From Pseudidiomarina gelatinasegens (GTDB taxonomy: Bacteria; Pseudomonadota; Gammaproteobacteria; Enterobacterales; Alteromonadaceae), in assembly GCF_004025325.1 (NCBI RefSeq), contig NZ_RSFE01000009.1, positions 1 through 64,000 on the forward strand: a stretch of DNA of 64,000 bases, in the 5' to 3' direction. The notes below the pieces were generated by a model. It saw only the letters and a program-made list of their open reading frames with translations. It was not told the DNA's origin and ran no database searches. A program made the translations under genes and the position numbers. This document shows, piece by piece, positions 6,070 through 48,972 of the stretch. The first letter of the stretch is position 1. Every line of letters starts with the position of its first letter.

Positions 6070-6172
6070 GAGCTAGTTGTCCTTTTTTGGTGTCGATGCG
6101 CCGAAGTTTTCACAGTGCTTGCGCATTCAAAAAATTAGGGCGAATTATAGAACTCTAAGGCCCCCGCAACAA

Positions 6173-17104: not shown

Positions 17105-17116
17105 AGCCTTCTCCTA

Positions 17117-17935: not shown

Positions 17936-17979
17936 AATGTTTAACCTTCTGCCCTAAAATTTGTTAACGCTTTAACAGC

Positions 17980-19635: not shown

Positions 19636-19649
19636 GGAAATCCTCTAGC

Positions 19650-21893
19650 TTACATCGAGCTGTATTTTTCACGTAACCGCTGGCGAACAAGCTCTGCCAA
19701 CGTGTTAAACGCAAACGTGAATACAAATAGAACAAAGGCAGCCAAAAATAGTATTCGATAATGCGAGCTACCCACTTCCGATTCAGGCATTTCAACGGCA
19801 ATGTTTGCAGACAAGGTGCGCATGCCCTCAAAAATGTTCCAATCCATAATCGGCGTGTTACCTGTGGCCATAAGTACAATCATGGTTTCACCCACGGCAC
19901 GGCCAAGGCCCATCATTACCGCCGAGAAAATACCTGGGCTGGCTGTTAACAACACCACTTTAGTAAGCGTCTGCCACGTGGTTGCGCCCAGCGCCAATGA
20001 GCCATTCGATAAATGGTTCGGCACACTAAATACAGCATCTTCGGCAATCGAGAAGATGGTCGGAATGACCGCAAAGCCCATCGCGATGCCCACCACCAAC
20101 GAGTTACGCTGGTCAAACGTGATGCCTAATTCATTGGTAATAAACTGACGCACGTTGCCGTCAAATAGCACCCGCTCTATAAATGGCGACATTTCAAATG
20201 CGAACCAGCTGACCAGTGCGACCACCGGCAACAGAATCAAAGCGGCTCGGCCATCTGTGAATTTGTTGCGCCAGGTTTTTGGTAAGCGGCTGCTCAGAAA
20301 CGCCACCAAAATAATCGCGCTTGGCACCAAAATGATGGTTGCGACAATTCCGGGCAAGTAATTCTCAATAATCGGGGCTAGCCACAAACCTGCCAGGAAG
20401 CCCAAAATAACTGTTGGCAATGCTTCCATGATTTCGACAGTTGGCTTCACCACTTTGCGCACGCTTGGCGACATAAAGTAGGCCGTATAAACCGCAGCGG
20501 CTAAACCAATCGGCACCGCAAACAGCATGGCGTAGGCGGCTGCTTTTATGGTACCGAATGAAATCGGCACCAAGCTAAATTTCGGTTCAAAGTCATCTGA
20601 CCCAGACGTGGATTGCCAAACGTACTGCGGCTCAGGATACCCTTCGTACCAAACTTCTTGCCAAATGCCACTCCAGCTTACTTCTGGGTGTTCATTTTCA
20701 AGGTTGAAGGTGTGCAATTCACCGCCACTCTGCATCAACAAAGTGTTTGCGCGTGGGTCTATCACCACACGGTCGGCACGCAGTTTGTCAGGGTGCTCAA
20801 GGTACAGATCAGCTTCTGAAGTGGTGTGAAACACGCCCACCTGCCCATTTTCTGAAACGGTATAGAAGGTTCTGCGGTAATACTCAGCAACGATATCAAC
20901 AATGGCATCGTCACCGGCTTTGAATTCACGAATGTATTGATACTGACGGCCATTTTCACCCGCCACTTCAAACCACTGTGTGACCAGGCCATTGGCGTGA
21001 CCAAACATGACCGAGCTGGCACCAGCAAGCAACTGCATGCTAGTTATTTCGCCGTAACGGCGACGCTCAATATTCAGTAGCTGGCGCTCAGTTACTTTAC
21101 CGGTACGCGACACATCAAACACGTAAAAACGATTGCCTTGGCGTACAAAAACTTGGCTTAAGTTTGGCTGCACGAGAATGTTGTCTACTTCGCCGGTTAG
21201 CGGCAATTCAGTGAACTTTGATTCAAGCTCAACGGCCCCGGTTAAGAAGCTCTTGGTTGCCATGGCGTAATTAACAATCACGGTGTTATCGGCGGTTACC
21301 GCAGCGAACAACGACGAGTCACCATCATATTCATAAGCCAACTGCGTGAGTGTGCGTTGCTGTGGGTCAACCTGAATCAGTTCACCGTCATTGCCAAAAT
21401 CAACGTATGGCGTTGTTAAGCGCTGACCTGCGGTAAATTTAGAACGGAATTTCGGTTCGATGATGCGCACTTGCCCATTAGCTACAGCATAGGCGTAACG
21501 CTTCTTCTGCGGCTGCGTGGAAGCAAAGGCGGTAGGCTGTTCAGCAACACGTTCAGATAAAAGCACTTCACCAGGCTGCCAATCTGTGCCCGGTTTAGTT
21601 TTCAGGGCGAAAAAGGTCAAATCACCTTTATCACTGAATCGAAAACCAATTTCTGACTGCTCTTCCATGCCCATGGCGAGGGTTTGGCCCTGCCCTGGAA
21701 TGGCAAAGGACTGTTGCCGCTCAATTTCCACACCGCGGAAAATTGGCTCAACCACATATAACAAATAAAAGAAGATCAGTAGCAGTGCTATTAAGACTAA
21801 TCCGCCGCCAAAGGTTACCCCCCAACGCGCGGCTCTGTCTTTGAATAATCGCACATTACTGGCTCCCAACTCAGAGCGTTGTGATGCCGCCAT
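19650..21893 (-). CDS. pstC: Phosphate ABC transporter permease PstC, long form
   Basis: A 747-residue permease subunit, more than twice the E. coli size. One membrane helix at about 28-50 is followed by an insertion of roughly 400 residues with short repeating beta-type segments (for example FVRQGNRFYVFDVS and GHANGLVTQWFEV), which looks propeller-like and periplasmic. The C-terminal 300 residues form the usual permease with GSLALGATTWQTLTKVVL. It has its own Pho-box promoter at 21942-21975, downstream of the pstS terminator. Confidence 0.95.
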   Translation of the reverse strand: MAASQRSELGASNVRLFKDRAARWGVTFGGGLVLIALLLIFFYLLYVVEPIFRGVEIERQQSFAIPGQGQTLAMGMEEQSEIGFRFSDKGDLTFFALKTKPGTDWQPGEVLLSERVAEQPTAFASTQPQKKRYAYAVANGQVRIIEPKFRSKFTAGQRLTTPYVDFGNDGELIQVDPQQRTLTQLAYEYDGDSSLFAAVTADNTVIVNYAMATKSFLTGAVELESKFTELPLTGEVDNILVQPNLSQVFVRQGNRFYVFDVSRTGKVTERQLLNIERRRYGEITSMQLLAGASSVMFGHANGLVTQWFEVAGENGRQYQYIREFKAGDDAIVDIVAEYYRRTFYTVSENGQVGVFHTTSEADLYLEHPDKLRADRVVIDPRANTLLMQSGGELHTFNLENEHPEVSWSGIWQEVWYEGYPEPQYVWQSTSGSDDFEPKFSLVPISFGTIKAAAYAMLFAVPIGLAAAVYTAYFMSPSVRKVVKPTVEIMEALPTVILGFLAGLWLAPIIENYLPGIVATIILVPSAIILVAFLSSRLPKTWRNKFTDGRAALILLPVVALVSWFAFEMSPFIERVLFDGNVRQFITNELGITFDQRNSLVVGIAMGFAVIPTIFSIAEDAVFSVPNHLSNGSLALGATTWQTLTKVVLLTASPGIFSAVMMGLGRAVGETMIVLMATGNTPIMDWNIFEGMRTLSANIAVEMPESEVGSSHYRILFLAAFVLFVFTFAFNTLAELVRQRLREKYSSM

Positions 21894-21941
21894 TGCTGCC
21901 TCTTACGTTATAAACCAACGAATATATTTATGATGCCGCAT

Positions 21942-21975
21942 AGTATAGACGCGTTCTATGACAGTATTGTTACAG
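21942..21975 (-). promoter_or_regulatory. Pho box and -10 for pstC
   Basis: Read on the minus strand: CTGTAAC, 4 bp, CTGTCAT (21958-21964), 10 bp, then TATACT (21947-21942), five of six bases of the -10 consensus. The heptamers fit the PhoB site CTGTCAT with an 11-bp repeat, placed where a -35 would be. Confidence 0.85.
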
Positions 21976-22011
21976 TACTGTCATATTAGTGAAATTTTTC
22001 TGTCATGCAGC

Positions 22012-22042
22012 AAAAAGCCCGCTAGGAATTAGCGGGCTTTTT
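22012..22042. terminator. Terminator between pstS and pstC
   Basis: Perfect 13-bp stem AAAAAGCCCGCTA (22012-22024) with TAGCGGGCTTTTT (22030-22042), loop GGAAT. It ends pstS and separates its high expression from pstCAB-phoU. Confidence 0.9.
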
Positions 22043-22057
22043 CATGGTTCGTTTTGC

Positions 22058-23029
22058 TTAGCTTAAGCCTAAACGCTCAAGCTCTTGCTCAACCACAATG
22101 CGTGGTAATGGAATGTAGCCGTCTTTGTCGACTATTTCCTGGCCAGCTTTTGACAATACCATTTTCAAGAACTCAGCTGTTGCTGGGTCTAATGGCTTGT
22201 TTGGATGCTTATTCACATAAACATACAAGAAGCGCGATAGTGGGTACTTACCAGCAAGTGCATTTTCTGTGGTTGCGTCAACGTATTCTTCACCAGCTTC
22301 AACCGCTAATGGTACGGTTTTAACACCAGAGGTCATGTAACCGATACCTGAGTAGCCGATTGCGTTCAGTGAAGTTGATACTGACTGCACAACGGATGCA
22401 GAACCTGGCTGTTCGTTTACGTTGTTACGGAAGTCACCGTCACACAGTGCGGTTTCTTTAAAGTAACCGTAAGTACCTGAAACTGAGTTACGACCATAGA
22501 TTTGCAAGTCGCGTGCGTCCCAGCTACCGGTAAGGCCTAAATCACCCCAACGACGTACTTCTTCGGTTGCACCGCATAAACGGGTGCTTGAAAACACAGC
22601 ATCCACTTCAGCAATGGTCATGCCTTCGATTGGGTTATCTTTGTGTACGAATACTGCTAAAGCATCAATGGCAACACGAACTGCGGTTGGCTTGTAACCG
22701 TGACGCTTTTCGAAAGCTTCAATTTCTTTTGCTTTCATAGCGCGGCTCATTGGGCCAAAGTTTGAGGTGCCTTCAGTCAACGCTGGTGGCGCAGTTGATG
22801 AACCAGCCGCCTGAATTTGCATGTTCACATTCGGGTACATGCGCTTAAATTCTTCAGACCAGAAGGTCATCATGTTCGCTAAGGTGTCAGAACCCACTGA
22901 AGATAAGTTGCCAGATAGGCCGCTTACTTTTTCATATTCAGGTAAGTTGTCAGTTGCTTTTTGCGCGGTTGCTGAAAAGCTCAATAGGCCTGCAACTGCT
23001 GCGGTAATCAATGCCGATTTGAATTTCAT
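22058..23029 (-). CDS. pstS: Periplasmic phosphate-binding protein PstS
   Basis: A 323-residue high-affinity phosphate receptor for the Pst importer. Signal peptide about residues 1-22 ([20 protein letters not shown], then TA). Phosphate-binding segments resemble the family: [20 protein letters not shown] and [16 protein letters not shown] at 23041 is open, but ATG at 23029 has GGAG 7 bp upstream and begins the signal peptide. It has its own Pho box and terminator. Confidence 0.96.
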
Positions 23030-23092
23030 AATAGACTCCAATCGTTAATGTGTGTTGGCGCAAACCAACCGTTTAATCAGTAACTGGAATCT

Positions 23093-23135
23093 ATTCTAGT
23101 AGGTCAATGTGACAGTATTGTGACAATTATGACAA
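23093..23135 (-). promoter_or_regulatory. Pho box and -10 for pstS
   Basis: Minus strand: TTGTCAC (23126-23120), 4 bp, CTGTCAC (23115-23109), 10 bp, TAGAAT (23098-23093), five of six -10 bases. A further TTGTCAT lies 2 bp upstream of the first heptamer. Strong match to a PhoB-activated promoter. Confidence 0.88.
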
Positions 23136-23140
23136 AGCTG

Positions 23141-24439
23141 TCATTTTTTTATCACAAGCTCTTCAGAGATACGGAAATAAAACCGCGAGCCGCGCCCAAC
23201 AACAGAATCAATTTGCAGGCGGCTATGGTGGTGTTCCAAAGCTTGTTGCACGATTGCCAGGCCAAGACCGGACCCACCTTTCTTGCTGTTGCGGTCTTTA
23301 TCAACGCGATAAAAACGCTCCGTTAAACGCCCTACATGCTCCGCTGGAATGCCGGGGCCGTTGTCCTGAACGCTGAATTCTGCGTCTTGCCCAACCATTT
23401 TCCAGGTTATGCGAATGACGCCGTTGGGCTGCGTGTAGTGAATTGCGTTAGAAACTAAATTTGAAAACACGCTACGCAGTTCATCTTCAACGCCGTGAAT
23501 TTGAATTGGCTGGATATCAAATTCGAGTGTGTGCTGCTTGTCTTGATTAAGCCGCTCCGCGTCATTTTTCACCGTCTCCAGCATACTGGGCACGTTGACA
23601 ACGCGTTCAAACATGTCGGTGCGGTGTACATCCATTCGCGACAGCGACAGCAATTGATCAACCAGGTTGCGCATGCGGTCACTTTGGCCCTGCATATCAC
23701 TCACGGCTTTGGTAAGCATCGCTGGCGGCATAGAGGCTGGCTCATCGAGCATTTCCAAATAGCCTTGCAGCACGGTGAGCGGTGTTTTTAATTCATGTGA
23801 AACGTTCGCGACGAAGTCTTTACGCATTTGTTCTAACTGTTTCAGCTGCGTCACGTCGCGTGCCATAAGCAAGTATTGGTCGTCGCTGTAGGGCATGATG
23901 CGAACTTCAAGCTCGATGTCTTCACGCACCGGTGAAGGTATATGAATGTCTTCGCTGAAATCGCCTTTTTGCAAGTAAGCGACAAATTCAGGGTGTCGAA
24001 TTAAGTTTGAAAGCCGAATGCCAGTATCTGCTGGCCATTTCAGACCAAAATAGAACTGCCCCAGTTTATTGCACCAAATTAAGCCACCGTCTTTACGAAA
24101 CACGATAGCTGCATCAGGGATTGCTTCTGAGGCTTCACGAAAACGGCGCAGTAATCTGGCCAACGCGCGACGGCGCTGCTGGCTGCGGCGCTGGGTGCGG
24201 TAAATGCCGTCATAGATGTAACTCCAGCTACCCGGCGCGCTCGGTGGAAGCACTGTACGGCGATGCCATAGCCAGTCCACCAGCTTGTATTGGTAGTAAT
24301 AATGCCACACCACCAATGCAAACAATACAATGGCTAACGTTGCCCAAAAATAATCGAACAACCAACCGAAAAAGCCCACTGGGATAATAAACCACAGCAG
24401 GCCTTTTAGAATAAACAGCACCGAATAGCGGCGATCCAT
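23141..24439 (-). CDS. phoR: Phosphate regulon sensor histidine kinase
   Basis: A 432-residue inner-membrane kinase that phosphorylates PhoB when phosphate is short. Two adjacent N-terminal membrane helices (about 8-45) are followed by a PAS domain with AIPDAAIVFRKDGGLIWCN. Then come the H-box NVSHELKTPLTVLQGYLEM and an ATPase domain with DNGPGIP and GGSGLGLAIVQ. It follows phoB by 18 bp. The first half of the pstS control region begins directly after its stop. Confidence 0.97.
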   Translation of the reverse strand: MDRRYSVLFILKGLLWFIIPVGFFGWLFDYFWATLAIVLFALVVWHYYYQYKLVDWLWHRRTVLPPSAPGSWSYIYDGIYRTQRRSQQRRRALARLLRRFREASEAIPDAAIVFRKDGGLIWCNKLGQFYFGLKWPADTGIRLSNLIRHPEFVAYLQKGDFSEDIHIPSPVREDIELEVRIMPYSDDQYLLMARDVTQLKQLEQMRKDFVANVSHELKTPLTVLQGYLEMLDEPASMPPAMLTKAVSDMQGQSDRMRNLVDQLLSLSRMDVHRTDMFERVVNVPSMLETVKNDAERLNQDKQHTLEFDIQPIQIHGVEDELRSVFSNLVSNAIHYTQPNGVIRITWKMVGQDAEFSVQDNGPGIPAEHVGRLTERFYRVDKDRNSKKGGSGLGLAIVQQALEHHHSRLQIDSVVGRGSRFYFRISEELVIKK

Positions 24440-24457
24440 GCTCAGAACCCGCCTTGT

Positions 24458-25144
24458 TTAGCTTTTTGAGAAACGATAGCCGACACCGCGAACGGTTTGC
24501 ACCAAGCGGTCATGACCGTGGGTTTCAAGTGCTTTACGCAAGCGGCGTATGTGCACATCAACGGTTCGGTCTTCGACATAAACGTTTGTTCCCCAAACAT
24601 GGTCAAGCAACTGCTCACGACTATACACCCTATCTGAGTGGGTCATAAAGAAGTGCAGTAGCTTAAATTCTGTAGGCCCCATATCCAAGCGTTCATTAAA
24701 CGCTGTAATACGGTGCGAAACGGGGTCTAAACGCAGGCCTTCCACTTCCAGCGGCTCGTCAAGAGCGGTGGGCGCGACGCGACGGAATACAGCACGCATA
24801 CGCGCCATTAATTCTTTCGGCGAAAAAGGTTTGGTCATGTAATCATCAGCACCAACTTCTAAACCGCGAACTTTGTCTTCTTCTTCGCCGCGGGCGGTTA
24901 GCATAATGATTGGAATTGACCGGGTGAAATCATCACCCTTTAATTTTTTAGCGAGCTGGATTCCGGAACCACCTGGAATCATCCAATCCAGTAAGATCAT
25001 ATCGGGGAACGGCTCGATAACTTTATCAAGTGCACTCTGGTAATCGCCTGCTTCAACAGCTTGATAGCCATGTTGTTCCATGACAAAACTTAGCATTTCA
25101 CGAATTGGCGCTTCATCTTCTACAATCAGTATCTTTCTGGACAT
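24458..25144 (-). CDS. phoB: Phosphate regulon response regulator
   Basis: A 228-residue OmpR-family regulator. The receiver domain has the acidic pair VEDE, phospho-acceptor Asp53 in [11 protein letters not shown], and Lys in TKPFSPKEL. The C-terminal winged helix has [11 protein letters not shown] and [13 protein letters not shown] at 25153 is open, but ATG at 25144 with AGGTGA upstream aligns exactly with E. coli PhoB. A Pho box lies in front, so it is likely autoregulated. phoR follows. Confidence 0.98.
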
Positions 25145-25175
25145 GTGCGTCACCTATTGATTTCAAGCACCGCCG

Positions 25176-25227: not shown

Positions 25228-26424
25228 TTATTTTAATTGAATGTCTATCCAAACCAGCCGATGGTCAGACGAAACCTTACGGTTACGCACGAGCTCAGCC
25301 TTTGCTGCGTTGGGCTCCGGCCAAAATACGCCCGCTTGAATCAGGCTGATTCCAGCCACCGACGGTAAAACATAATCCGCGCGCTTGCGCCAACCGGCTG
25401 TGTGCGTTGATGCCTGCGGGTTATCCGGTGAATGCGCGGCCCCACCGCGACTTTCTGGGGTTACTTCGGCATTTACTTTGGGATGCTTTAGCAACTGGGT
25501 AATGGCGCCTGGCACGTTATCGTCGCTTTCAACCGAAGCATTCAAGTCACCAGCAATAACAAATGCTTGGTTCTCACCAAGACCGCCAAAATTGCCATTA
25601 TCATCGTAGATATAGTCACTCAAATGCGGCTGTATGTAGTCTGCCCAGAATCTGATTTCATCGTGGTTACGGCGCCCATTACGATTTTCTTTGCCATCAA
25701 ATACGGGCGGCGTTGGGTGGCTGACCAGCACATGCAAGGTGTGTTGCTTGACGGCTATAGGCACATCCCAATGCGACTTTGAGCTCAAACGAAATTCTTG
25801 CCACGCCTCGGCACTGTAAAACGGTTCGCTGGTACCTGGCTTCAACGGGGCAAGCGCACCTGGCATATCCTTCCACTTGAACATTTGAAAGGTACGCACT
25901 GCATCGGTTTGGATTGGGTATTTGGACAACACCGCCATACCGTATTGGCCCGGATAAAAACCGAAACCCCAAGCATCATTGCCGGTGCCCGTTGCTTCGC
26001 CATCGCCGCTTAAATCATAAGGGCTCGGCACGCCAGTATTCACCGGCGCAATATACACATACGGGTAATCAATGGGCGATTCGCCATTTTGACTCACGGC
26101 CAAATAATCACGCTTAAATACATCAACGCCGTGCTGCTGATCAACATAGTCAAATTCATTAAGTACGAGCACATCAGGGCGTGTGTGCTGAACAATTTCG
26201 GCGATTGCCTGAATTTGTGGATGTTGTTGCGCTAATGCATCACGCAAAGCGCTCGCGCCTTTGTGTGGAAGCTCTTCCGCAGCAAGGTAATTACTCGCAT
26301 CCATGCTCACGTTAAAGGTAGCTACCCGCAATGCGACTGGCTCATTAATTTTTTCTTTGGGCATATCGCATCCTACTAAAGTAAGCGCAGATACAGACAA
26401 GACAAGGGCTGTATACAATTTCAT
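25228..26424 (-). CDS. Lipoprotein of the endonuclease/exonuclease/phosphatase family
   Basis: A 398-residue probable lipoprotein: lipobox LVGC with Cys19. The body has the DNase I-like metallo-fold. Blocks are RVATFNVSMD, LVLNEFDYV (metal Glu), LHVLVSHPTPP, VIAGDLNASVESDD (catalytic Asp/Asn) and SSDHRLVWIDI (terminal His). It is therefore likely a phosphodiesterase, nuclease or phosphatase anchored in the envelope; the substrate is not visible. It lies directly upstream of the phoB promoter on the same strand and is divergent from the TonB receptor. A role in releasing phosphate outside the cell is inference from position. Confidence 0.85.
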   Translation of the reverse strand: MKLYTALVLSVSALTLVGCDMPKEKINEPVALRVATFNVSMDASNYLAAEELPHKGASALRDALAQQHPQIQAIAEIVQHTRPDVLVLNEFDYVDQQHGVDVFKRDYLAVSQNGESPIDYPYVYIAPVNTGVPSPYDLSGDGEATGTGNDAWGFGFYPGQYGMAVLSKYPIQTDAVRTFQMFKWKDMPGALAPLKPGTSEPFYSAEAWQEFRLSSKSHWDVPIAVKQHTLHVLVSHPTPPVFDGKENRNGRRNHDEIRFWADYIQPHLSDYIYDDNGNFGGLGENQAFVIAGDLNASVESDDNVPGAITQLLKHPKVNAEVTPESRGGAAHSPDNPQASTHTAGWRKRADYVLPSVAGISLIQAGVFWPEPNAAKAELVRNRKVSSDHRLVWIDIQLK

Positions 26425-26520: not shown

Positions 26521-26569
26521 TTGTCATATAAATGACATCTTCTTGTGAAAAATTTTTTGTAATTGTCAT
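26521..26569 (+). promoter_or_regulatory. Possible Pho-box-like site before the Oar-like receptor
   Basis: TTGTCAT (26521-26527), ATGACAT (26532-26538) and TTGTGAA (26543-26549) lie at 11-bp steps. A further TTGTCAT at 26563-26569 is out of phase. No good -10 sits 10 bp after any of them, so this is weaker than the pst sites. The near-palindromic heptamers could face either the receptor or the divergent lipoprotein gene. Confidence 0.4.
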
Positions 26570-26637: not shown

Positions 26638-29600
26638 ATGAGCACCTCAATGCGATTTTCTCGCACCGCTAGTGCAATAGCCGTGGCCTTAGGCCTAGCT
26701 TCAGCATCAGCAGTTGCACAAGATACTTCGGCATCTATGCGTGGTTCTATCGTTGGCCCTACTGGTGAAGGCGCAGCGAATACTCGAGTCATCATAGAGC
26801 ACGTTCCTTCAGGCAGCCGTTTAGAAGTTACCACTGACGAAACTGGTAATTTCATTGCAAGTGGCTTGCGTGTAGGCGGCCCGTACCGAGTTACTCTTGA
26901 CTCTGACCTATACCGCGACACAACTTACAGCGAAGTTTTTCTGAAACTTGGCGAAACTTACCGCTTAACCGCTCAGCTTGAGCAATCAAACGTTGAGCGT
27001 ATCACTGTTACTGGCGCGGCGCTAAACCCAGCCAGCATGAACAGCGGTTCAACCAGCTCGTTCGGCGAAGACAATATTCGTAACATGCCGACCTTTAACC
27101 GCGACCTGAAAGACATTATTCGTCAAAACCCACTTGCAGTAAACTTGGCTGACGAAGATAGCTCTTTGACTGTTGCTGGTAGCAACCCGAAATACAACTC
27201 AATTACTGTTGACGGCATCGGCCAAAACGATGACTTCGGTTTGAATGGTAATGGTTATCCAACTCAGCGTTCACCTATTTCTGTGGCTGCTGTTGAACAG
27301 TTGTCAATTGACGTTGTGCCATTCTCTGCAAAAGACGGTGGTTTCAGTGGCGCTAAAATCAATGCTGTAACGAAGTCAGGTACCAACGAATTTGAAGGCG
27401 AAGTATTCTATGAATACACCAGCGATTCATTAACTGGTAACCCAGATGCTTCTCGTTATGAGCCAGATGCAGCAGCACCTGATTTAGACTTTTCTGAAAA
27501 AACGTGGGGCTTCGCGGTTGGCGGTCCAATTATCAAAGATAAATTATTCTTCTTTGTTAACTATGAAAAGTATGAAGAGCCAAAATCTGTAGAGCGCGGG
27601 CCAATTGGCGCAGCGGCTAACCAACAAGCTTCAGTAACACAAGATGAAGTTGACCAAATCACTCAAATCGCGCGTGATGTTTATGGCGTTGATGTGGGTA
27701 CTTGGAACGCAAACCCAGTGCAAGAAGACGAAAAAATTCTCGTTAAACTCGACTGGAACATCAATAACAATCACCGTGCTGCTTTTACTTATCAAACAGC
27801 TGAAAGCAACGCGACCAACAATAACGGCGGCAGCTCGAGCACTTTACCGTTGTCTTCACGTTGGTACGATAAGAGCGAAAAGCTTGACGCTATGGCGTTA
27901 CAAGTTTATTCAAACTGGACCAGCAACTTCTCAAGTGACATCAAATTATCACGCAAGAACGTTGAAACTGCGCAAGCACCTTTGCTTGGCTTAAACTTCG
28001 GTCAGGTTAACATCCGTACTGCAGACGGCACTGTGCAAATTGGTCCGGATCAATACCGTCACGCGAATGCCTTAGAGAACACCACAACTGAATTCCAGTT
28101 CAACGGTGAATACTTGACTGGCGACCACGCTATTGGTTTCGGTTACGAATATGAAGAAGTCGATATCTTCAACTTGTTCGTACCTGCTTCATTAGGTGTT
28201 TGGGATTTCGATACAATTGCTGACTTCGAAAACCAAGAAGCTGCATACTTTGCTTATCGCAATGCCTTCACGAACAACGCAAACGACGGTGCTGCTAGCT
28301 TAACGCCTGCAACTCACGCGTTCTATATTGAAGACACGTGGACGCCATCTTGGGACTTAGAAGTAAGCTTTGGCTTACGCTATGAGCGTCAGTCTGTTGA
28401 CGGTACACCACGTTACAACCAAAACTTCGAAGACCGTTACGGCTTCGCGAATACTGAAAACTTAGACGGTCGCGACATCTGGATGCCACGTGCTGGCTTC
28501 AAATATCAGCTTAACGACAACTATCGCTTACGCGGTGGCTTCGGTCGCTACGCTGGTGGTCGTCCAAATGTTTGGATTTCAAATGCCTACTCTGTTGACG
28601 GTGTAACTATTGTTGACGCACCATTCAGTGTTACAAGCAACTATCAGTCAGGCGTTGACATCACCACTATTCCACAAGAAGTGCGTGACAGCTTAACTGC
28701 TGGTGACGGTAACACCACACCTATCGACCCGAACTTCGAACTGCCAAACGAATGGCGTTACAGCCTTGGCTTGGATTACGAAGGTGATTTAGGCTTCTTA
28801 GGTGAAGACTGGTACGCAAGTGCAGAATATATCCGCACCCGTAAGCAAAACGATGTTCGCTGGGTTGATTTAGCCCGTCGTCCATTAACGGATGCTGATG
28901 GCAATGTGGTAACAACTTCTGATGGCGGTCGTATCATCTATGTTGTTGATGACCCATTAGATAACTTCACCCCAACTGAGCCAGGCGAATTCGGTGGTGT
29001 TGACCGTTATGACGTGATGTTAACCAACGGCTATGGTGGTAATAGTAATATTTACACCTTCTCGCTTGGTAAAGCGTTCGATAACGGTATCTCATTGAAC
29101 ACTTCATACACGCATCAAGACGTAAACGAAGCAGTTAATGGTGGTTCATCGCAAGCAGCGTCGAACTATCAATACGTAACCGCACTTGATCGTCAAAATC
29201 CGTTGCCTGCAACTGCTGGCTACGAAATTGAACATCGCTTCGTAATTACTGCGCAATACAGCACTGAGTTGTTTGCTGGTTACGAGTCGAAGTTTGCAAT
29301 GTTCTTTGAGCGTGTATCAGGTCGTCCATTTAGCTACGTAATGAGCTCATTCCGCGACTCAGACCTTGGTGACCAATCAGCGTTTAACCGTTCAAGCCAA
29401 TACTTAGCGTACATCCCAACGGGTCCAAACGATCCGAATGTTGTGTACGAAGGTGGCTTAACGTATGACGACTTAGCACAAATCATCGCTGATAAAGGCC
29501 TTGAGCAGTATGCTGGTGGTTATACGGGTCGTAACGAAGCACGTGGTCCATGGAACACCAACATCGACTTACGTTTCGAGCAAGAACTTCCAGGCTTCTG

Positions 29601-29853
29601 GGAAGGTCACAAAGGTGCCTTGTATCTTGACGTGAAAAACGTGGTTGCTCTATTCGATAAAGATTCAGCGCAACAACACGTGATTCCATTCGCAGATACG
29701 ACCCAAGGTATTGTTGACTTCGGTGGCTTGACTGATGAAGGTCAGTACATCTACGCACCAGTGTTTGGCGGCTTAGATGACTATGCACCAACGCGCTATC
29801 GTGCAGAAGCTTCAACGTGGCAAGTAAAAGTAGGTGTTCGTTACAACTTCTAA
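26638..29853 (+). CDS. Oar-like TonB-dependent outer-membrane receptor
   Basis: A 1071-residue outer-membrane protein. A signal peptide (about 1-28, ending SASAVAQ) is followed by a carboxypeptidase-regulatory-like beta domain (about 30-115). Then come a plug with FNRDLKDIIRQNP and ITVDGIGQNDDFG, and a large barrel ending in the outer-membrane aromatic terminus RYNF. This is the Oar family layout rather than the classic siderophore receptor. The substrate is not known. AGGA precedes the ATG. It sits divergent from the phosphatase-fold lipoprotein beside the Pho block, which hints at a phosphorus-linked substrate; that is inference. Confidence 0.93.
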   Translation: MSTSMRFSRTASAIAVALGLASASAVAQDTSASMRGSIVGPTGEGAANTRVIIEHVPSGSRLEVTTDETGNFIASGLRVGGPYRVTLDSDLYRDTTYSEVFLKLGETYRLTAQLEQSNVERITVTGAALNPASMNSGSTSSFGEDNIRNMPTFNRDLKDIIRQNPLAVNLADEDSSLTVAGSNPKYNSITVDGIGQNDDFGLNGNGYPTQRSPISVAAVEQLSIDVVPFSAKDGGFSGAKINAVTKSGTNEFEGEVFYEYTSDSLTGNPDASRYEPDAAAPDLDFSEKTWGFAVGGPIIKDKLFFFVNYEKYEEPKSVERGPIGAAANQQASVTQDEVDQITQIARDVYGVDVGTWNANPVQEDEKILVKLDWNINNNHRAAFTYQTAESNATNNNGGSSSTLPLSSRWYDKSEKLDAMALQVYSNWTSNFSSDIKLSRKNVETAQAPLLGLNFGQVNIRTADGTVQIGPDQYRHANALENTTTEFQFNGEYLTGDHAIGFGYEYEEVDIFNLFVPASLGVWDFDTIADFENQEAAYFAYRNAFTNNANDGAASLTPATHAFYIEDTWTPSWDLEVSFGLRYERQSVDGTPRYNQNFEDRYGFANTENLDGRDIWMPRAGFKYQLNDNYRLRGGFGRYAGGRPNVWISNAYSVDGVTIVDAPFSVTSNYQSGVDITTIPQEVRDSLTAGDGNTTPIDPNFELPNEWRYSLGLDYEGDLGFLGEDWYASAEYIRTRKQNDVRWVDLARRPLTDADGNVVTTSDGGRIIYVVDDPLDNFTPTEPGEFGGVDRYDVMLTNGYGGNSNIYTFSLGKAFDNGISLNTSYTHQDVNEAVNGGSSQAASNYQYVTALDRQNPLPATAGYEIEHRFVITAQYSTELFAGYESKFAMFFERVSGRPFSYVMSSFRDSDLGDQSAFNRSSQYLAYIPTGPNDPNVVYEGGLTYDDLAQIIADKGLEQYAGGYTGRNEARGPWNTNIDLRFEQELPGFWEGHKGALYLDVKNVVALFDKDSAQQHVIPFADTTQGIVDFGGLTDEGQYIYAPVFGGLDDYAPTRYRAEASTWQVKVGVRYNF

Positions 29854-41325: not shown

Positions 41326-41366
41326 CAATCGCGTTCGTTAAGAAAGATGGCAATAGTGTACCTTGC

Positions 41367-42317
41367 TTAAAACTTATGTTCGATACCAATCGCAAGATAA
41401 CTCTGATTCACGTCGATGCTTTCTAGATCACGACCCGTATACCAGCTATAAACTTTGGTGTTTTTACCCAGTTTATAGTCGACGCCTGCAGCCAATGATG
41501 TTTGTTCGCCATCAACACTGAAATCCATCATTTGATACTGCGCTTTGAAGGTAAAGTTTTGATACGGATATTTAATACTCGCAACATAACCATCGGCTTC
41601 AGCAGTACCGTCTACTTGTTCCTGTTGTTGCCACATTAAGCCGACAACTGCTTCAGAAACCTTGGTGTAACCGACTAAACGCTCAATATCGTAACCGTCA
41701 ACTTCACGGTCAATAGCGGCACCAACGTAAAAGCGTGTGTCGTCAAGACCTTCATCGCCGTAACTCACGCCAGTAGAGATGCCATCATCAACCAATGGAT
41801 CATCGCTAGCAATATAGCTTACTGCGAAACGCACATGGTTAAACGCTGGTGAATAGTAGCTTACGCTGCTGCTTAAGCGGTTTTCACCTTCAAAAATGGC
41901 TTTAATGTCGCCTTCATAGTCGCTGAATAAGTCAATATCGCCTTGAATTGTTTTCAACACGGTATCGCGGCGGCCAATGGTGACTTCACCAAAATTGCCC
42001 TTCAAACCTATATATTGATTGCGCGATTTTAAATTGTCTGACCCGCCCAAATCGGCTACATCCACTTGCCATTCAAGCTTATAAATAACTTCAAGATCAT
42101 CATTTAACTGCGTGCCACCTTGAATTCCGAAACGTGAAGCGTTCGATACCATATCGGTTTGCGAACCGTTTCCGTCATCAAGATCGTTACTTTGCAAAGA
42201 AACATTTATTTTACCGTAAATGTCCCAAGCTAATGGCTTCTCTTCGGCGAACGCAGGTTGAGTAAGTACTGCTACTGCCGCCGCAACTGCTGAGGTAAGG
42301 AATAATTTGTTTTTCAT
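41367..42317 (-). CDS. Outer-membrane porin, probably phosphate-starvation induced
   Basis: A 316-residue general porin-type barrel. A signal peptide (about 1-24, ending QPAFA) is followed by the first strand WDIYGKINVSLQ, the block SRFGIQGG, the loop-3 region NQYIGLKGNFGEVTIGR, and a C-terminal Phe (IGIEHKF) for barrel assembly. The frame extends to 42365, but the signal peptide sets ATG at 42317. A three-heptamer Pho box lies upstream, so it is probably the functional counterpart of PhoE; selectivity cannot be read from the sequence. Confidence 0.92.
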   Translation of the reverse strand: MKNKLFLTSAVAAAVAVLTQPAFAEEKPLAWDIYGKINVSLQSNDLDDGNGSQTDMVSNASRFGIQGGTQLNDDLEVIYKLEWQVDVADLGGSDNLKSRNQYIGLKGNFGEVTIGRRDTVLKTIQGDIDLFSDYEGDIKAIFEGENRLSSSVSYYSPAFNHVRFAVSYIASDDPLVDDGISTGVSYGDEGLDDTRFYVGAAIDREVDGYDIERLVGYTKVSEAVVGLMWQQQEQVDGTAEADGYVASIKYPYQNFTFKAQYQMMDFSVDGEQTSLAAGVDYKLGKNTKVYSWYTGRDLESIDVNQSYLAIGIEHKF

Positions 42318-42372
42318 AACATAGCAGCCCAATTTTCGGAGAACACAAGTGGATATATACCACACCCTCGTA

Positions 42373-42417
42373 ATATTGGCGGTATGTTATGTCAGAAATA
42401 TTACAGTTTCATGACTA
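42373..42417 (-). promoter_or_regulatory. Pho box before the porin gene
   Basis: Minus strand: TAGTCAT (42417-42411), 4 bp, CTGTAAT (42406-42400), 4 bp, CTGACAT (42395-42389), then 10 bp and CAATAT (42378-42373). Three heptamers in strict 11-bp phase match the PhoB site, five or six of seven bases each; the -10 is poor. The spacing equals that at pstS, pstC and phoB. Confidence 0.75.
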
Positions 42418-42440
42418 TGTGTCAGTTTTTTGGCATTTAT

Positions 42441-42473
42441 ATGTCGTTTACATGTCGTTTACATTTCACTTCT
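42441..42473. repeat. Three 11-bp repeats upstream of the porin Pho box
   Basis: ATGTCGTTTAC occurs twice in tandem (42441-42451, 42452-42462), followed by the related ATTTCACTTCT (42463-42473). The 11-bp step is that of Pho boxes, with TGTC in each of the first two units, but on the opposite strand. It touches the stop of the TPR gene. Confidence 0.7.
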
Positions 42474-43740
42474 ATGATTTTTTTATGTCAGCCTTCAGCT
42501 CATTTAAGCTATCTTGTTGTTTCTGCTCGGCTTGCGCGTAACGTTCCCATTGCGCTGCAGATTGGCGCGAATCATCAAATTTTTTCGCTTCTGCAAAGGC
42601 TTTCAGAGCCGCATTGAAATTTTCCAAATTCAGTTCAGCCATACCTATGACTAAATGCATTGAACCCGGTTGCTCCAAGTTACCTTTACGCAGAGCTTGT
42701 TCAGCTGCAGCAATTGCTTCTTGGTTGCGCTCAGCATTGAGCATCAATGTTGCACGCTGCGCATCGAGCTGACCGTTGTCACTCAACTCGGCCGCCGCTT
42801 GCAATGCTGCGTTCGCTTTGTCGGTTTCACGCGCAGCAACCCACGCCTGAGCAAGTAACTTTAAGTTGCGCAAGCTGCGTTCAATTGCACCTGTTTCTAA
42901 ACCTTGTTCAAGAACTTGCCCTGCTTTAAAAGGCACATCACTAAAAAAGTAGGTTTGGGCTAAGTTCAGCAGGTCTTGCCCTTTGGTTAAAAAGCCCTGT
43001 TGAAATGCAGTTTCTAACATCGCTAACTGTTTTTCTTCCTGACCTAACTGACCATACACACCCGCTAACTGCACCCAGTATTCAGGCTTATTGTAATACC
43101 GCACCATTTTTTCGAGCACTTTGGCGACATTGTCAGTTTGTTCCAGTTCAAAAAATACAGCGCGTTGCAGCACCAACCAGTTTTCTTCTGGCACTTGCTG
43201 TTTCGCTTCAACAGCATTAATTGCAGTTGAGATTGGTTTCAAGGCTTGCTGATAATCGCCTTTCTGATACAAGGCTTGCGCCTTCAGCACATAAGCTTTT
43301 TGCTTTTGATCTGCACCAACCAACTGTTCCCATTGGTCTAAATACGCCAACGTTTTGGCATAATCGCCTTGGCCCAAAGCAAGTTGCGCAAGGCTAAATA
43401 AGGTGTTTTGTTCCAGCGATTCAGGAATCGCTTCTTCTTTGGTCACTTTATCGAAGTAGCTAATTGCTTTGGCGATGTCATCCTGACCGTAATACATGTA
43501 ACCGTAGAAATTCCAGAGCATGGCGCGTTCGTAGCTGTTCATGCTACTGAGCTTACTTTCAACATTGTTTAACGCCTGCAAGCCGGCTTGCACATCGCCT
43601 TCATCAGCTAACTGCTGCGCGCGGGCTAGCTGGCTATACACTTGCTCGCGTAAGGCCGGTGTTTTTTTGCGTTCTTGCGCAATGGCACTGGCGTTAGCAA
43701 GCACCGACAATATAACGATAACCCATAGTAAATAACGCAT
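42472..43740 (-). CDS. TPR-repeat periplasmic protein of the TonB2 cluster
   Basis: A 422-residue protein with a signal peptide (about 1-21, ending ANASA) and many tetratricopeptide repeats over most of its length, for example ALYQKGDYQQALKPIS and SLAQLALGQGDYAKTLAYL. TPR arrays bind proteins. It is last in DUF3450-TtpC-ExbB-ExbD-TonB-TPR, 12 bp after tonB. TPR proteins accompany TonB2 loci in vibrios and relatives; the exact job is not established. It probably assists energy transfer or a receptor partner. Confidence 0.88.
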   Translation of the reverse strand: MRYLLWVIVILSVLANASAIAQERKKTPALREQVYSQLARAQQLADEGDVQAGLQALNNVESKLSSMNSYERAMLWNFYGYMYYGQDDIAKAISYFDKVTKEEAIPESLEQNTLFSLAQLALGQGDYAKTLAYLDQWEQLVGADQKQKAYVLKAQALYQKGDYQQALKPISTAINAVEAKQQVPEENWLVLQRAVFFELEQTDNVAKVLEKMVRYYNKPEYWVQLAGVYGQLGQEEKQLAMLETAFQQGFLTKGQDLLNLAQTYFFSDVPFKAGQVLEQGLETGAIERSLRNLKLLAQAWVAARETDKANAALQAAAELSDNGQLDAQRATLMLNAERNQEAIAAAEQALRKGNLEQPGSMHLVIGMAELNLENFNAALKAFAEAKKFDDSRQSAAQWERYAQAEQKQQDSLNELKADIKKS

Positions 43741-43752
43741 GACCTATCTCCT

Positions 43753-44361
43753 CTAACCATCTATCGCGAATGTGAGGCGATTCTGAACACCCTGCACTTC
43801 AACAGGTTCGCCGTTAACCACGCGGGGTTTATATTTAAATTTCAAAACCGCATCCATCGCTGCCTGATCAAAAATGCTTTCAGGTTGCGCCTCAACCACA
43901 TAAGGGTCGCGCACCGTGCCTTGCTTGGTCACTGTAAATTCCACCACCACATACCCTTCAATGCCGCGCTGAAGTGCGCGCCGCGGGTACACGGCCTGAA
44001 CTTTTACAATCGGCAGATACTCGCCATCACTGGTATCGAGCCCAACACCGCCTGACAAGCTTGTATCCGCTTGAACATCGGTGGAGAAATCTAAGCCAGC
44101 GCCATCACTTTCCGCCACATCATTTTGCATTTGCGGTTGCGGCATATCCGGTGGCGGTTGCTCCGGCTCAGGCGGGCGCTGCGGCTTGCGTTCTTTTTCC
44201 TGTACCACTTCTTCAGGCTTCACACGGACAAAGTCCAGCACACTGCCTTTGGGTGGTTCCGACATTGCACCTTCGCCACCGGCTATTAATGACTGCATTA
44301 AATAAAACAGCCCGGCGGTAACAGCGAAAGCAACAACTAAAGCAGCTAAAAAACGTTTCAT
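43753..44361 (-). CDS. tonB2: TonB2-type energy transducer
   Basis: A 202-residue TonB protein. An N-terminal membrane helix (about 5-27) is followed by a short Pro/Glu/Gln-rich linker (KPQRPPEPEQPPPDMPQPQ) and a C-terminal TonB domain (about 115-202) with YPRRALQRGIEGYVVVEFTV and FKYKPRVVNGEPVEV. The short linker is typical of the TonB2 class. It is 2 bp after exbD. It passes proton-motive energy to outer-membrane receptors such as the Oar-like protein at 26638; that pairing is inference. Confidence 0.95.
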   Translation of the reverse strand: MKRFLAALVVAFAVTAGLFYLMQSLIAGGEGAMSEPPKGSVLDFVRVKPEEVVQEKERKPQRPPEPEQPPPDMPQPQMQNDVAESDGAGLDFSTDVQADTSLSGGVGLDTSDGEYLPIVKVQAVYPRRALQRGIEGYVVVEFTVTKQGTVRDPYVVEAQPESIFDQAAMDAVLKFKYKPRVVNGEPVEVQGVQNRLTFAIDG

Positions 44362-44363
44362 AA

Positions 44364-44771
44364 CTAGTCTTCTTGGGTTGCAATCGAGACATCAAATACA
44401 CCCGCAGCACGGGCAGCGTCCATCACCTTGATCAGGGTTTCAGTGGTGGCTTTTTTATCAGCCTGAATAACCACTGAACCTTGCGGATTTTCCGCGTACA
44501 GGCGCTCAATGTTGGCTTGCACGGCGCGTGCATCCACTTGACGTTTGTTAATCCAAATTTCACCACTGTCGCTAATCGCAACAAGAATATTGGCGCGATC
44601 CTTTTGCACCGCAGTAGCAGCTTCTGGACGGTTCACGTCAATGCCTGACTCTTTGACAAAAGACGCGGTAACAATAAAGAAGATCAACATGATGAACACC
44701 ACATCGAGCATCGGCGTCATATCAATTTGCGCTTCTTCTTCATCAATCAAATTTGCAAAATGCTGTTTCAT
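44364..44771 (-). CDS. exbD2: Biopolymer transport protein ExbD (TonB2 system)
   Basis: A 135-residue inner-membrane protein with one helix (about 22-42). Directly before it is MTPMLDVVFIMLIFFIV, containing the conserved Asp of the proton path. The periplasmic domain follows (INKRQVDARAVQANIERL). It works with ExbB to drive TonB. It is 12 bp after exbB. Confidence 0.95.
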   Translation of the reverse strand: MKQHFANLIDEEEAQIDMTPMLDVVFIMLIFFIVTASFVKESGIDVNRPEAATAVQKDRANILVAISDSGEIWINKRQVDARAVQANIERLYAENPQGSVVIQADKKATTETLIKVMDAARAAGVFDVSIATQED

Positions 44772-44783
44772 TGCGCGCTACCT

Positions 44784-45335
44784 CTATGAGTGTTCAGTCG
44801 TCTGTTGATTTGAATGGTCTAGCAGCAAGCGGTCTTCAAGTTTGAGCCGCTCGCGCTTTGCCGTACGTTGTAGCCAAGTGGTGGCAAATACGCCTGACAG
44901 CGCACCAACCATTCCTGCCATGGTTGGAATGGTGGCTTTGGAAACGCCGGCTGCCATCGAACGTGCATTGCCCGTTCCAGCCACGGCCATGACATCAAAA
45001 ACTTCAATCATGCCGGTTACGGTGCCCATTAAGCCGAGCAATGGGCACAATGCGACCATTGCCTGCAAAATAGGTAAGTTGCCACCTAAAGCTAACGAGA
45101 CCCGTGAAATCATGGCCTCGCGAATTTGTTCAGCCTGCCACGATGACTTATCCGCACGGTTTTTCCATGACTGCATCGCTGCTTTTGTGGTTTCTCTATG
45201 GCCACGTAAGTAATAGAAAATACGCTCGAGAATCATTAACCACATGACAAAAATGAGTACACCGATAACCAGCAGCACGTTGCCGCCGGTTTCGATGAAG
45301 TCTTGAATTGCGTTGGTGAACTCAAGCAGAAACAT
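44784..45335 (-). CDS. exbB2: Biopolymer transport protein ExbB (TonB2 system)
   Basis: A 183-residue MotA/TolQ/ExbB-family protein with three membrane helices (about 18-38, 90-118, 135-158). The conserved core is LCPLLGLMGTVTGMIEVF. It forms the proton channel with ExbD. Unlike TtpC upstream, it lacks a periplasmic domain. It is 2 bp after ttpC. Confidence 0.95.
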   Translation of the reverse strand: MFLLEFTNAIQDFIETGGNVLLVIGVLIFVMWLMILERIFYYLRGHRETTKAAMQSWKNRADKSSWQAEQIREAMISRVSLALGGNLPILQAMVALCPLLGLMGTVTGMIEVFDVMAVAGTGNARSMAAGVSKATIPTMAGMVGALSGVFATTWLQRTAKRERLKLEDRLLLDHSNQQTTEHS

Positions 45336-45337
45336 GA

Positions 45338-46705
45338 TTAATGACTCCGCTCAGAGCGCTCCGCAATAATGCCAGACGCTTGTTCTTGCAGTATGTGCAC
45401 GATGTTACGGCTGCGCGTGTTCAAGGTGGCGAATAACAACGTCATTGGAATGGCAACGACCAGACCCAATACGGTTGTTACGAGCGCTTGTGAAATACCA
45501 CCAGCCATCAATTTCGGGTCGCCGGTGCCAAACAAGGTAATTGCTTGGAAGGTATTAATCATACCGGTTACGGTACCGAGTAAGCCCATTAGCGGCGCGA
45601 CCACTGAAATAATCTTAATAAAGGTTAAGTTGCGCGTAATTTTCGGAATTTCACGCAAAATCGCCTCGCTGAGTTTCAACTCCAGCGTTTCCGTATCAAC
45701 ATCAGGGTATTTACTTTGTACCGCCATAACACGACCGAGCGGGTTATCATTGGCTGGCTCTACTTTCTTCATCTGGCGTTTCACTTTGCCGCCCATCAGA
45801 ATCAGGGTGACAAAACGCTCTAATGCAATCAGTAAGCCGATAGCGCCCAAGGCCAGAATGATGTAACCAACCGTGCCACCTTGGTCGATGCGTTCGCCAA
45901 GATCTGGTGCTTGCACCAAAAGGCCAAGAATTGAGCCGCCCGTTGGGTCCATCGCAAACTTAACCGGATTGTTGTCTGCCGACTCAAGGGCACCAATGGT
46001 GTCAAGGTAGCGGCCCGATGGCTGACGAATTAACTCCGCCACGGTATCGGTGCCTGGTACAAGCTCTAAATAACGGCCATCCGCGACCATATTAAAGGTG
46101 CCCACACGGGTTACCGGTTTCTGCACCTTTTCACCGTTAGCAAGTGTCACTTGCGTGTCGAACTGGCTGACTTTGCCAGACTCGGTCATTTCTTGCAGAA
46201 GTGCTAACCACACTGATTCAATTTCTTCTATCGATGCTAACTTCGAGCTGCTGCCCATTTTCTGGGCCAAATCGCTCAACTGCTCACTGCGACCAGGAAA
46301 TTCAACTGACACAAACGAAGATTGCAGCTTACTGCTGGTGTCGCCCGCAACTTGTTGCAATACACCGAATAGCTCACGTAGTGAACCCATGCGTTGGGTT
46401 AATGTGTCGGTAAGCCCGGCAAGTTCGATCTCGTTCTTTTCAAAATTGGTTTCTAGCGTTTCGCTGAGTTGTTCCAAACGATCACGTTCAGCAATGGCTT
46501 CACGCAAGATGCGCGCCTGCTCATTGGCTTCTGCGCGAAAGCGTGCTTCACGCTGTTGGTTCTCTTCAGACTGTGCAAACTGACCTTGTTGCAACTGTTG
46601 TAACAACTGGTCCAAATTTATTGGGTCTTGCGGCGCGGCAGCGGTGCTTGCTGAAAGTACCATTGCGGCTGCTGCTAAAGTGGTGGTGAACAATTGTTTT
46701 AGCAT
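45338..46705 (-). CDS. ttpC: TtpC-like MotA/TolQ/ExbB protein with periplasmic domain
   Basis: A 455-residue protein. Signal peptide (about 1-23), a Gln/Glu-rich coiled-coil periplasmic region (about 28-120), more periplasmic sequence to about 270, then an ExbB-like membrane domain with APLMGLLGTVTGMINTFQA. TtpC is the fourth component of vibrio TonB2 systems and is needed there for TonB2-driven uptake. It lies 2 bp after the DUF3450 gene. The presence of both TtpC and ExbB marks this as a TonB2-type cluster. Confidence 0.93.
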   Translation of the reverse strand: MLKQLFTTTLAAAAMVLSASTAAAPQDPINLDQLLQQLQQGQFAQSEENQQREARFRAEANEQARILREAIAERDRLEQLSETLETNFEKNEIELAGLTDTLTQRMGSLRELFGVLQQVAGDTSSKLQSSFVSVEFPGRSEQLSDLAQKMGSSSKLASIEEIESVWLALLQEMTESGKVSQFDTQVTLANGEKVQKPVTRVGTFNMVADGRYLELVPGTDTVAELIRQPSGRYLDTIGALESADNNPVKFAMDPTGGSILGLLVQAPDLGERIDQGGTVGYIILALGAIGLLIALERFVTLILMGGKVKRQMKKVEPANDNPLGRVMAVQSKYPDVDTETLELKLSEAILREIPKITRNLTFIKIISVVAPLMGLLGTVTGMINTFQAITLFGTGDPKLMAGGISQALVTTVLGLVVAIPMTLLFATLNTRSRNIVHILQEQASGIIAERSERSH

Positions 46706-46707
46706 GG

Positions 46708-47481
46708 TTATTCTCCAGCGCCGGTGGTGTTAGTAAAAACGGGAAGCATCAGAAGGTCAGGTGCAAGCTGTTTACGCGCAACGCGCAGTGCTTCTTGCAC
46801 ATTGCTGGCATAGCTGGAATCTAAAGGCTGCCAATCGCCTTGTTGTTGATTCCAAACACCCATTTGATTGCCGTCGCGGGTTTTATAAACAAGTACCGTG
46901 CGGCCCATGCGCAAGAACTCGACATCTTGTTGCTGACCGTCAACAGTCATTTCACCGTTATAGGCTTCGATATTACGGCCGTAATCAGCTTCAATTTGAA
47001 AGGCTTCCATAACGCGGCGAAATTTCTCTGAAACATCAACATCGGCGCGGTCCATCAAGTCACGTAGGCCAGCGACGCGCTCAGCGCGTTCTTCTGGCAA
47101 GAATGGCACGTCAAGCTCAACAAACTTCGCCAGACTATCAATCATGCGCAACATTAATGGGGTAATTTGACGCTCAACCACGCTCACTTCATCAATCGAT
47201 GTATTGAGTTCGTTTTTTTCGGTGGCTTGGGCGTTAAGTTGTTTTTGCAGTTGCTGGGTATAAACTTCCAGCCCCTGAATTTGACGTGTTATTTGCTTAT
47301 ATTGCTGGATTCTCTCTTGGGTAGAGTCTGCAATTTTTTCAACAGTAAGTTGTGACGATTTCGCCGCTGCATTAATTTTGTTGGCCGCATCAACAACCGG
47401 CTCAAGCGAATGTTCTTGAGCGGCAAGCGGTGCGCTTAGCAACGCCAGTGCCGCGACCGAGGAAATAAAGGAATGCTTCAT
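46708..47481 (-). CDS. DUF3450 periplasmic protein of the TonB2 cluster
   Basis: A 257-residue DUF3450 family protein. It has a signal peptide (about 1-21, ending LAAQ), then a long coiled coil (about 30-110, TQERIQQYKQITRQIQGLEV), and a C-terminal globular part with FLRMGRTVLVYKTRDG and MGVWNQQQGDWQPL. DUF3450 genes regularly precede TtpC in TonB2 loci; the role is unknown. It is the first gene of the cluster, with a Pho-box array directly upstream. Confidence 0.9.
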   Translation of the reverse strand: MKHSFISSVAALALLSAPLAAQEHSLEPVVDAANKINAAAKSSQLTVEKIADSTQERIQQYKQITRQIQGLEVYTQQLQKQLNAQATEKNELNTSIDEVSVVERQITPLMLRMIDSLAKFVELDVPFLPEERAERVAGLRDLMDRADVDVSEKFRRVMEAFQIEADYGRNIEAYNGEMTVDGQQQDVEFLRMGRTVLVYKTRDGNQMGVWNQQQGDWQPLDSSYASNVQEALRVARKQLAPDLLMLPVFTNTTGAGE

Positions 47482-47517
47482 AACAATACCCTGCGCATCT
47501 AATGAGTGATGATGCGC

Positions 47518-47573
47518 ACGATACTGCAGTTATGTGACAGCTTGGTGACTCTATTGTGTCAGTTATGTGTCAA
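47518..47573 (-). promoter_or_regulatory. Extended Pho-box array before the TonB2 cluster
   Basis: Minus strand heptamers in strict 11-bp phase: TTGACAC (47573-47567), CTGACAC (47562-47556), GAGTCAC (47551-47545), CTGTCAC (47540-47534). Then 10 bp and TATCGT (47523-47518), four of six -10 bases. CTGTCAC is a known E. coli Pho-box variant. The array overlaps the 3' end of the upstream channel gene and ends about 37 bp before the DUF3450 start. Confidence 0.78.
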
Positions 47574-48825: not shown

Positions 48826-48972
48826 GCGGTTTTATCTCTGTGCGACACCGTATTGGCGAAGGGTTTTAAACTTCCCCTAACATAGCTGAAGCGGGTCGTT
48901 TTCGCAATGCTTGATATATTGCGAATCTAGCTAAATTCCAGTACCTTGTGTGAAAGTTTTATAGGACCTCAC

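Follow-up and report, generated by a model that had tools for sequence, protein, structure and literature searches.

TonB energisers are usually regarded as general or iron-linked, and the entry of phosphate through the outer membrane is regarded as passive, via porins. A 64,000-nucleotide stretch of the Pseudidiomarina gelatinasegens genome (on contig C28 of a 2.47-Mb genome; the whole stretch is referred to below as the window) carries a six-gene TonB cluster preceded by an array of heptamers resembling a PhoB-binding site, raising the question of which nutrient controls this energiser and which receptors it serves. A sequence-only reading of the window had proposed that the cluster is driven by PhoB and, further, that it is a dedicated energiser of phosphorus uptake.

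Cluster organisation and promoter geometry

Pfam annotation placed, in minus-strand order, an mscS-like gene, the run DUF3450-TtpC-ExbB-ExbD-TonB-TPR and a porin (Table 1). The six genes of the run, with intergenic gaps of 2, 2, 12, 2 and 12 bp, are those of a TtpC-type TonB system, the TtpD2 of Vibrio vulnificus being likewise a TPR protein. No Rfam family was found across positions 41300-48900.

The minus strand between the mscS-like gene and DUF3450 reads TTGACAC-ATAA-CTGACAC-AATA-GAGTCAC-CAAG-CTGTCAC-ATAACTGCAG-TATCGT. This comprises four 7-bp direct repeats at the 11-bp period of PhoB-controlled promoters, with exactly 10 bp between the fourth repeat and the hexamer TATCGT. The same distance from box to hexamer is found in the pstS (TAGAAT), pstC (TATACT) and phoB (GATAAT) promoters of the window, and the repeats, their position directly upstream of the cluster and their shared geometry with these promoters were all confirmed, by direct reading, as first described. 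In the pho promoters of E. coli, PhoB on its box recruits sigma-70 polymerase without a -35 element. On the minus strand, a simple sigma-70 scan found nothing in the interval from mscS to DUF3450, as expected where PhoB substitutes for the -35, and the array stands about 10 bp before the putative -10, as in promoters of that kind.

Conservation of the heptamers among relatives had been set in advance as a test of PhoB control, and the array was retained in all 25 cluster-bearing genomes among the 26 genomes of the genus Pseudidiomarina examined. The hexamer 10 bp past the array was TATCTT in 21 of these, TATTGT in 2, TATCGT in 1 (the window) and TAAAGT in 1. Across the 25 promoters, heptamer columns were less variable than linkers (0.38 vs 0.80 bits), a modest contrast equalled in size by 439 of 10,000 phase permutations. 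The only zero-mismatch match to the four-heptamer pattern in the genome itself was the cluster promoter, a circular ranking given that this same site had supplied the pattern; at up to 2 mismatches the pattern matched the cluster promoter in 25/25 genomes, and the reversed control gave no match in 26 genomes. A search at 3 mismatches was dropped as too loose (443 matches vs 354 for the reversed control).

Table 1. Features of the window discussed in the text, with the annotation or score on which each is based.
Feature	Position	Strand	Basis
TtpB-like DUF3450 protein, opening the cluster	46708..47481	-	PF11932 2.5e-89
TtpC-like MotA/ExbB-domain protein	45338..46705	-	PF01618 2.1e-30; placed in type-A clade
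ExbB	44784..45335	-	PF01618 6e-22
ExbD	44364..44771	-	PF02472 3.5e-33
TonB	43753..44361	-	PF03544 1.1e-20; one of 2 TonB_C matches genome-wide
TPR protein (TtpD-like), final gene of the cluster	42472..43740	-	TPR families
Porin (Porin_4), own Pho-type promoter	41367..42365	-	PF13609 2e-37
Pho-like heptamers 5' of porin gene	42389..42436	-	matrix >=8 in 20/20 (window + 19 relatives)
phoB-phoR-pstS-pstC-pstA-pstB-phoU, regulator and reference promoters	16388..25153	-	NCBIfam
EEP (endonuclease/exonuclease/phosphatase)-family protein, lipobox-like LVGC	25228..26424	-	PF03372
Pho box of TonB-dependent receptor	26521..26542	+	matrix 16.8; >=8 in 16/19
TonB-dependent receptor, Pho box immediately 5'	26638..29853	+	PF25183, PF00593; Plug
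Four direct-repeat heptamers, 11-bp period (double Pho box, predicted)	47534..47573	-	heptamers 1 to 4 at 47567-47573, 47556-47562, 47545-47551, 47534-47540
TATCGT, putative -10 hexamer, 10 bp past heptamer 4	47518..47523	-	

Scoring with an independent PhoB matrix

A 22-bp PhoB matrix was built from 60 training sites, namely the pstS, pstC and phoB promoters of the window and of 19 relatives (20 genomes in all), with the cluster promoters excluded from training and the threshold set at a score of 8. The region upstream of DUF3450 reached this threshold in 21/21 genus loci, with a score of 18.7 in the window, whereas among 337 regions upstream of 17 other genes at the same loci a single one did so (summed from rows). 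Of 4000 null 400-bp stretches taken away from Pho genes, 85 reached 8 and 9 reached the 18.7 of the window, although this null may contain real sites.

Members of the OmpR family share the use of tandem direct repeats, and the array could in principle be bound by another OmpR/PhoB-family regulator that recognises 11-bp direct repeats and responds to a signal other than phosphate. This is considered very unlikely given that a matrix derived from pstS, pstC and phoB alone recognises the array, that the pst/pho promoters share its 10-bp spacing, and that clusters of this type are in places syntenic with phoB (see below). With matrix scores, conservation and promoter geometry in agreement, PhoB control of the cluster is predicted as very likely.

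Distribution of the cluster and its boxes

Within the family, the TtpC type of this cluster (type A; the cluster is hereafter cluster A) was separated from other types by a clear gap in best E-value and was carried by 90/118 sampled genomes, while 28/118 had more distant TtpC types only. Among family loci outside the genus, the matrix reached 8 before DUF3450 in 24/26. A scan of named relatives, restricted to the best 80 of at least 519 and overlapping the genus and family samples, gave scores of at least 8 upstream of DUF3450 in 70/80 loci. All ten misses among these best 80 were in Pseudoalteromonas, in which boxes were weak (17/27 reaching 8 and 10/27 below it, with a maximum of 11.6), and 53/53 of the loci outside that genus reached the threshold, representing Pseudidiomarina, Idiomarina, Alteromonas, Glaciecola, Bowmanella, Colwellia and others. 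A type-A cluster with the lipoprotein and receptor genes described below was also observed in Aliikangiella coralliicola of the Pleioneaceae (L245), grouping with genome G301 of family f7, possibly by horizontal transfer.

When 56 TtpC rows were placed in a tree, the 22 type-A rows (the window, L129 and 20 of the best 80 named loci) formed one clade with support 100/100, with some deeper forks left open. High matrix scores were nearly restricted to this clade: when approximately 400 bp before DUF3450 was scored in clusters outside it, a procedure that would miss promoters further up an operon, 1/39 reached 8, comprising 0/19 in a set that included the type-B cluster of the same genome, 0/15 in a second set (highest 7.9) and 1/5 genus type-B loci. 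At L131, DUF3450 was preceded by what appeared by eye to be the end of a receptor gene. The sole type-B cluster with a high Pho score, 16.2, was at L030 in genome G023, which may be fortuitous or mark a second change in control.

Iron control and the TonB2 comparison

An ordinary iron-regulated TonB2 cluster, in which the heptamers are the product of chance or of the end of the mscS gene, would account for gene kinds that match those of the TonB2 operon of V. vulnificus, which iron limitation induces (PMC6957404), and the mscS open reading frame, ending at 47563, does overlap heptamer 1. The array nevertheless persists at loci with no mscS detected on its upstream side, and the best Fur match upstream of cluster A was 11/19, a level that was common in the null. 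Fur-like sites of 15-16/19 preceded 5/6 clusters of family f21, which is taken to be Vibrionaceae, with one further site (L292, 15/19) in the remaining nine loci of that scan; among random 350-bp stretches of the window, whose composition differs from that of the f21 loci, 0/1000 exceeded 13/19. In the TtpC tree, type A did not group with these Fur-site clusters, f21 being placed elsewhere with the deep forks open. The label TonB2 given in the sequence-only reading is therefore imprecise, as the type-A proteins form a clade of their own, and the iron-regulated alternative is regarded as highly improbable.

The Fur-like sites of f21 and the Pho boxes of type A together suggest that the same architecture answers to iron in one lineage and to phosphate in another. 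If true, a single machine has been linked to either of two nutrients that are limiting in the ocean.

A candidate lipoprotein-receptor partner

The best candidate partner of the energiser lies outside the window, elsewhere in the genome on contig C3, and consists of a lipoprotein gene (f4) and the TonB-dependent receptor gene beside it (f5). On C3, f4 occupies 20427-22025, and its box, scoring 11.2, is at 22086. The gene that follows encodes a receptor, called f5-like from position and N-terminus only, for which the box upstream of f4 presumably also serves. Three members of f4 that were scanned had no Pfam match above cut-off, and f4 had no sequence match among solved structures. Its structure model was strand-rich with a mean pLDDT of 85.7; no fold match was obtained at E 0.001 or better, and the best, weak matches were mostly right-handed beta-helix proteins. 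The f4 protein may be a surface lipoprotein with a beta-helix, acting either as an enzyme or as a binder.

The pair was found within the 20 kb examined at 9/19 family loci outside the genus, directly upstream of cluster A at seven, two genes off at L180 and directly downstream at L184. A separate box upstream of the lipoprotein gene reached the threshold of 8 in 7/8 scorable cases among these out-of-genus loci. Among the named loci (the top 80 of at least 519), 55 carry the gene and 47/51 scorable ones reached 8, four being omitted for want of a usable start (L214, L232) or of a lipobox in the locus (L230, L238).

The link between these genes and phosphate comes from their synteny with phoB, phoR and pstS. 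In G091, cluster A has phoR on one side and phoB on the other; in three genomes of genus g28 it was followed shortly after by porin-transporter-phoB-phoR-pstS. A phoB of at least 68% identity lay within approximately 9 kb at 11/80 named loci (the best 80 of at least 519), and the gene order phoB-phoR-pstS-f4-f5-cluster A was observed at two Glaciecola loci and one Thalassotalea locus.

Within the genus, f4 was present in 25/26 genomes, G013 alone lacking it and also alone lacking cluster A, which was counted as one event. Across 118 family genomes, 89 had both f4 and cluster A, 19 had neither, nine had f4 alone (one of them resting on a weak f4 match, 1.8e-4) and one had cluster A alone, for a Fisher probability of 3e-14 that ignores the relatedness of the genomes. 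Of the five sampled genera that vary in cluster A, f4 co-varied in g8, g9, g26 and g52 and did not in g20. Co-occurrence does not establish that the TonB of cluster A drives the f5 receptor.

It is also conceivable that the operon is PhoB-driven yet acts as a general booster, with phosphate starvation lifting TonB capacity for all receptors. The genome encodes 15 Plug receptors vs two TonB_C proteins, and nine family genomes carry f4 without type A, both of which would fit such a role. Against this, the lipoprotein-receptor pair adjoins and co-occurs with cluster A, and TonB systems can differ in reach, as for aerobactin and TonB2 in V. vulnificus (PMC6957404), making a general role unlikely in comparison with a private one.

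Other receptors and Pho-type sites

The receptor in the window was the only one of the 15 with a box of at least 8 directly upstream (16.8). Fur-like sites of 13/19 were present at three other receptors; these prove little, as 42/1000 null stretches reach that level. The window receptor is divergent from an EEP-family gene that adjoins phoB, and the two are a possible scavenging pair for nucleic acids or phosphodiesters. Matrix scores upstream of the EEP gene itself are weak, with 5.4 for the window and only 6/20 reaching 8. No sequence match to either protein was found among solved structures. The window receptor (26638) was set aside as the partner of the energiser in favour of f4-f5, since G013, which is without cluster A, still has this EEP-linked receptor and, scoring 10.7, a Pho-like site for it, indicating that the receptor does not require the cluster A energiser.

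Two further observations were made on Pho-type loci. An asnA-like gene, identified by eye, lay between pstS and pstC in 8/9 relatives picked from 20 (e.g. L037:7151-9038), while the corresponding gap in the window is 164 bp without such a gene; the intervening gene, judged by its asnA-like appearance, is not a phosphate-related one. Separately, a second four-heptamer Pho-like array with 2 mismatches was found at C11:208123-208161 (-) of the same genome, corresponding to about 6124-6162 of locus L295, with similar matches in G012, G017 and G022. It lies approximately 24 bp 5' of an open reading frame (L295:4835-6100) presumed by eye to be acyltransferase-like, a possible case of PhoB-controlled lipid remodelling.

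Proposed model

The explanation preferred here, with a probability of roughly three in four, is that the PhoB-activated operon is a second, private TonB energiser for phosphorus acquisition. Under scarce phosphate, PhoR would phosphorylate PhoB, and two PhoB dimers would occupy the four heptamers and bring sigma-70 polymerase to the -35-less promoter, by analogy with E. coli. The products of DUF3450-TtpC-ExbB-ExbD-TonB-TPR would then couple the proton motive force to co-produced outer-membrane receptors, chiefly the f4-f5 pair on C3 and perhaps the receptor beside phoB; the lipoprotein and receptor probably capture phosphorus compounds. The binding of PhoB, the induction, the physical coupling and a phosphorus-containing cargo are what we infer from these genomic patterns.

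This explanation is favoured by scores from a matrix trained on other promoters, the contrast between heptamers and linkers, near-restriction to one clade, synteny with phoB and the pairing with f4. It is weakened by the weak Pseudoalteromonas boxes, the ten discordant genomes of 118, the receptor retained in G013 and the score at L030. Dedication to phosphorus uptake, as originally proposed, stands as a likely interpretation rather than an observation, based on the synteny with phoB, phoR and pstS and on co-occurrence with a Pho-boxed lipoprotein-receptor pair. A broader formulation, for which the balance is even, is that of an Alteromonadales machine in which a PhoB-controlled surface lipoprotein, a receptor and a private six-protein energiser pull a phosphorus compound across the outer membrane, having arisen by the placing under PhoB of a TtpC-type energiser that elsewhere is Fur-controlled. 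If true, outer-membrane phosphorus capture can be energised in common marine bacteria, and the locus with natural loss of both parts in G013 offers a concrete place to seek the substrate.

Comparison with known systems

The TonB2 system of V. vulnificus (TtpB2, TtpC2, ExbB2, ExbD2, TonB2, TtpD2) has the same gene kinds as cluster A, with the DUF3450 gene first; its TtpB2 (DUF3450) and TtpD2 are essential to the system, its expression is raised by iron limitation with a Fur site discussed, and aerobactin use is lost without TonB2 alone (PMC6957404). Cluster A differs in its Pho boxes and in a TtpC clade apart from the Fur-site clusters of f21. The V. vulnificus TonB3 system has the same six protein kinds and showed no iron transport, but its operon opens with a receptor gene; its expression is reported for human serum or for a minimal medium containing glycerol and little casamino acids, and in the portion of the source drawn on no mention of phosphate control was found (PMC6957404).

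The surface lipoprotein ElpS (CC0170) of C. crescentus is induced by phosphate starvation, has an LAGC lipobox and is encoded beside the TonB-dependent receptor Cc0171, with which it co-occurs across genomes (PMC2996285). The f4-f5 pair shares this arrangement of a predicted surface lipoprotein gene adjoining a TonB receptor gene, and f4 resembles ElpS, by description, in having a lipobox, a roughly similar size and a receptor gene alongside (PMC2996285). The ElpS/Cc0171 genes, however, are described beside a type II secretion cluster with no energiser, and cc0171 is reported as constitutive (PMC2996285). The PhoB regulon of C. crescentus includes TonB receptors, and ExbB is absent from the main text of that paper (PMC11208175).

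A TonB energiser with a pho box promoter is found in the phdA-pdtB-exbB2D2-tonB4 operon of P. aeruginosa, where binding of PhoB was observed by EMSA (PMC4971064). This operon additionally requires the ECF sigma factor VreI, with no DUF3450, TtpC or TPR gene named in the portion of the source drawn on (PMC4971064), and exbB2D2-tonB4 lies in a two-partner-secretion region and is called uncharacterised (PMC7035377). In the open-licence literature without bioRxiv, no title or abstract opening on PhoB control of a TtpC-type energiser was found among the matches listed. A PhoB-controlled energiser therefore has precedent in P. aeruginosa exbB2D2-tonB4, and what appears to be new in cluster A, relative to the open-licence literature among those matches, is the TtpC type, the sigma-70-like promoter geometry, the breadth of distribution and the pairing with a receptor.
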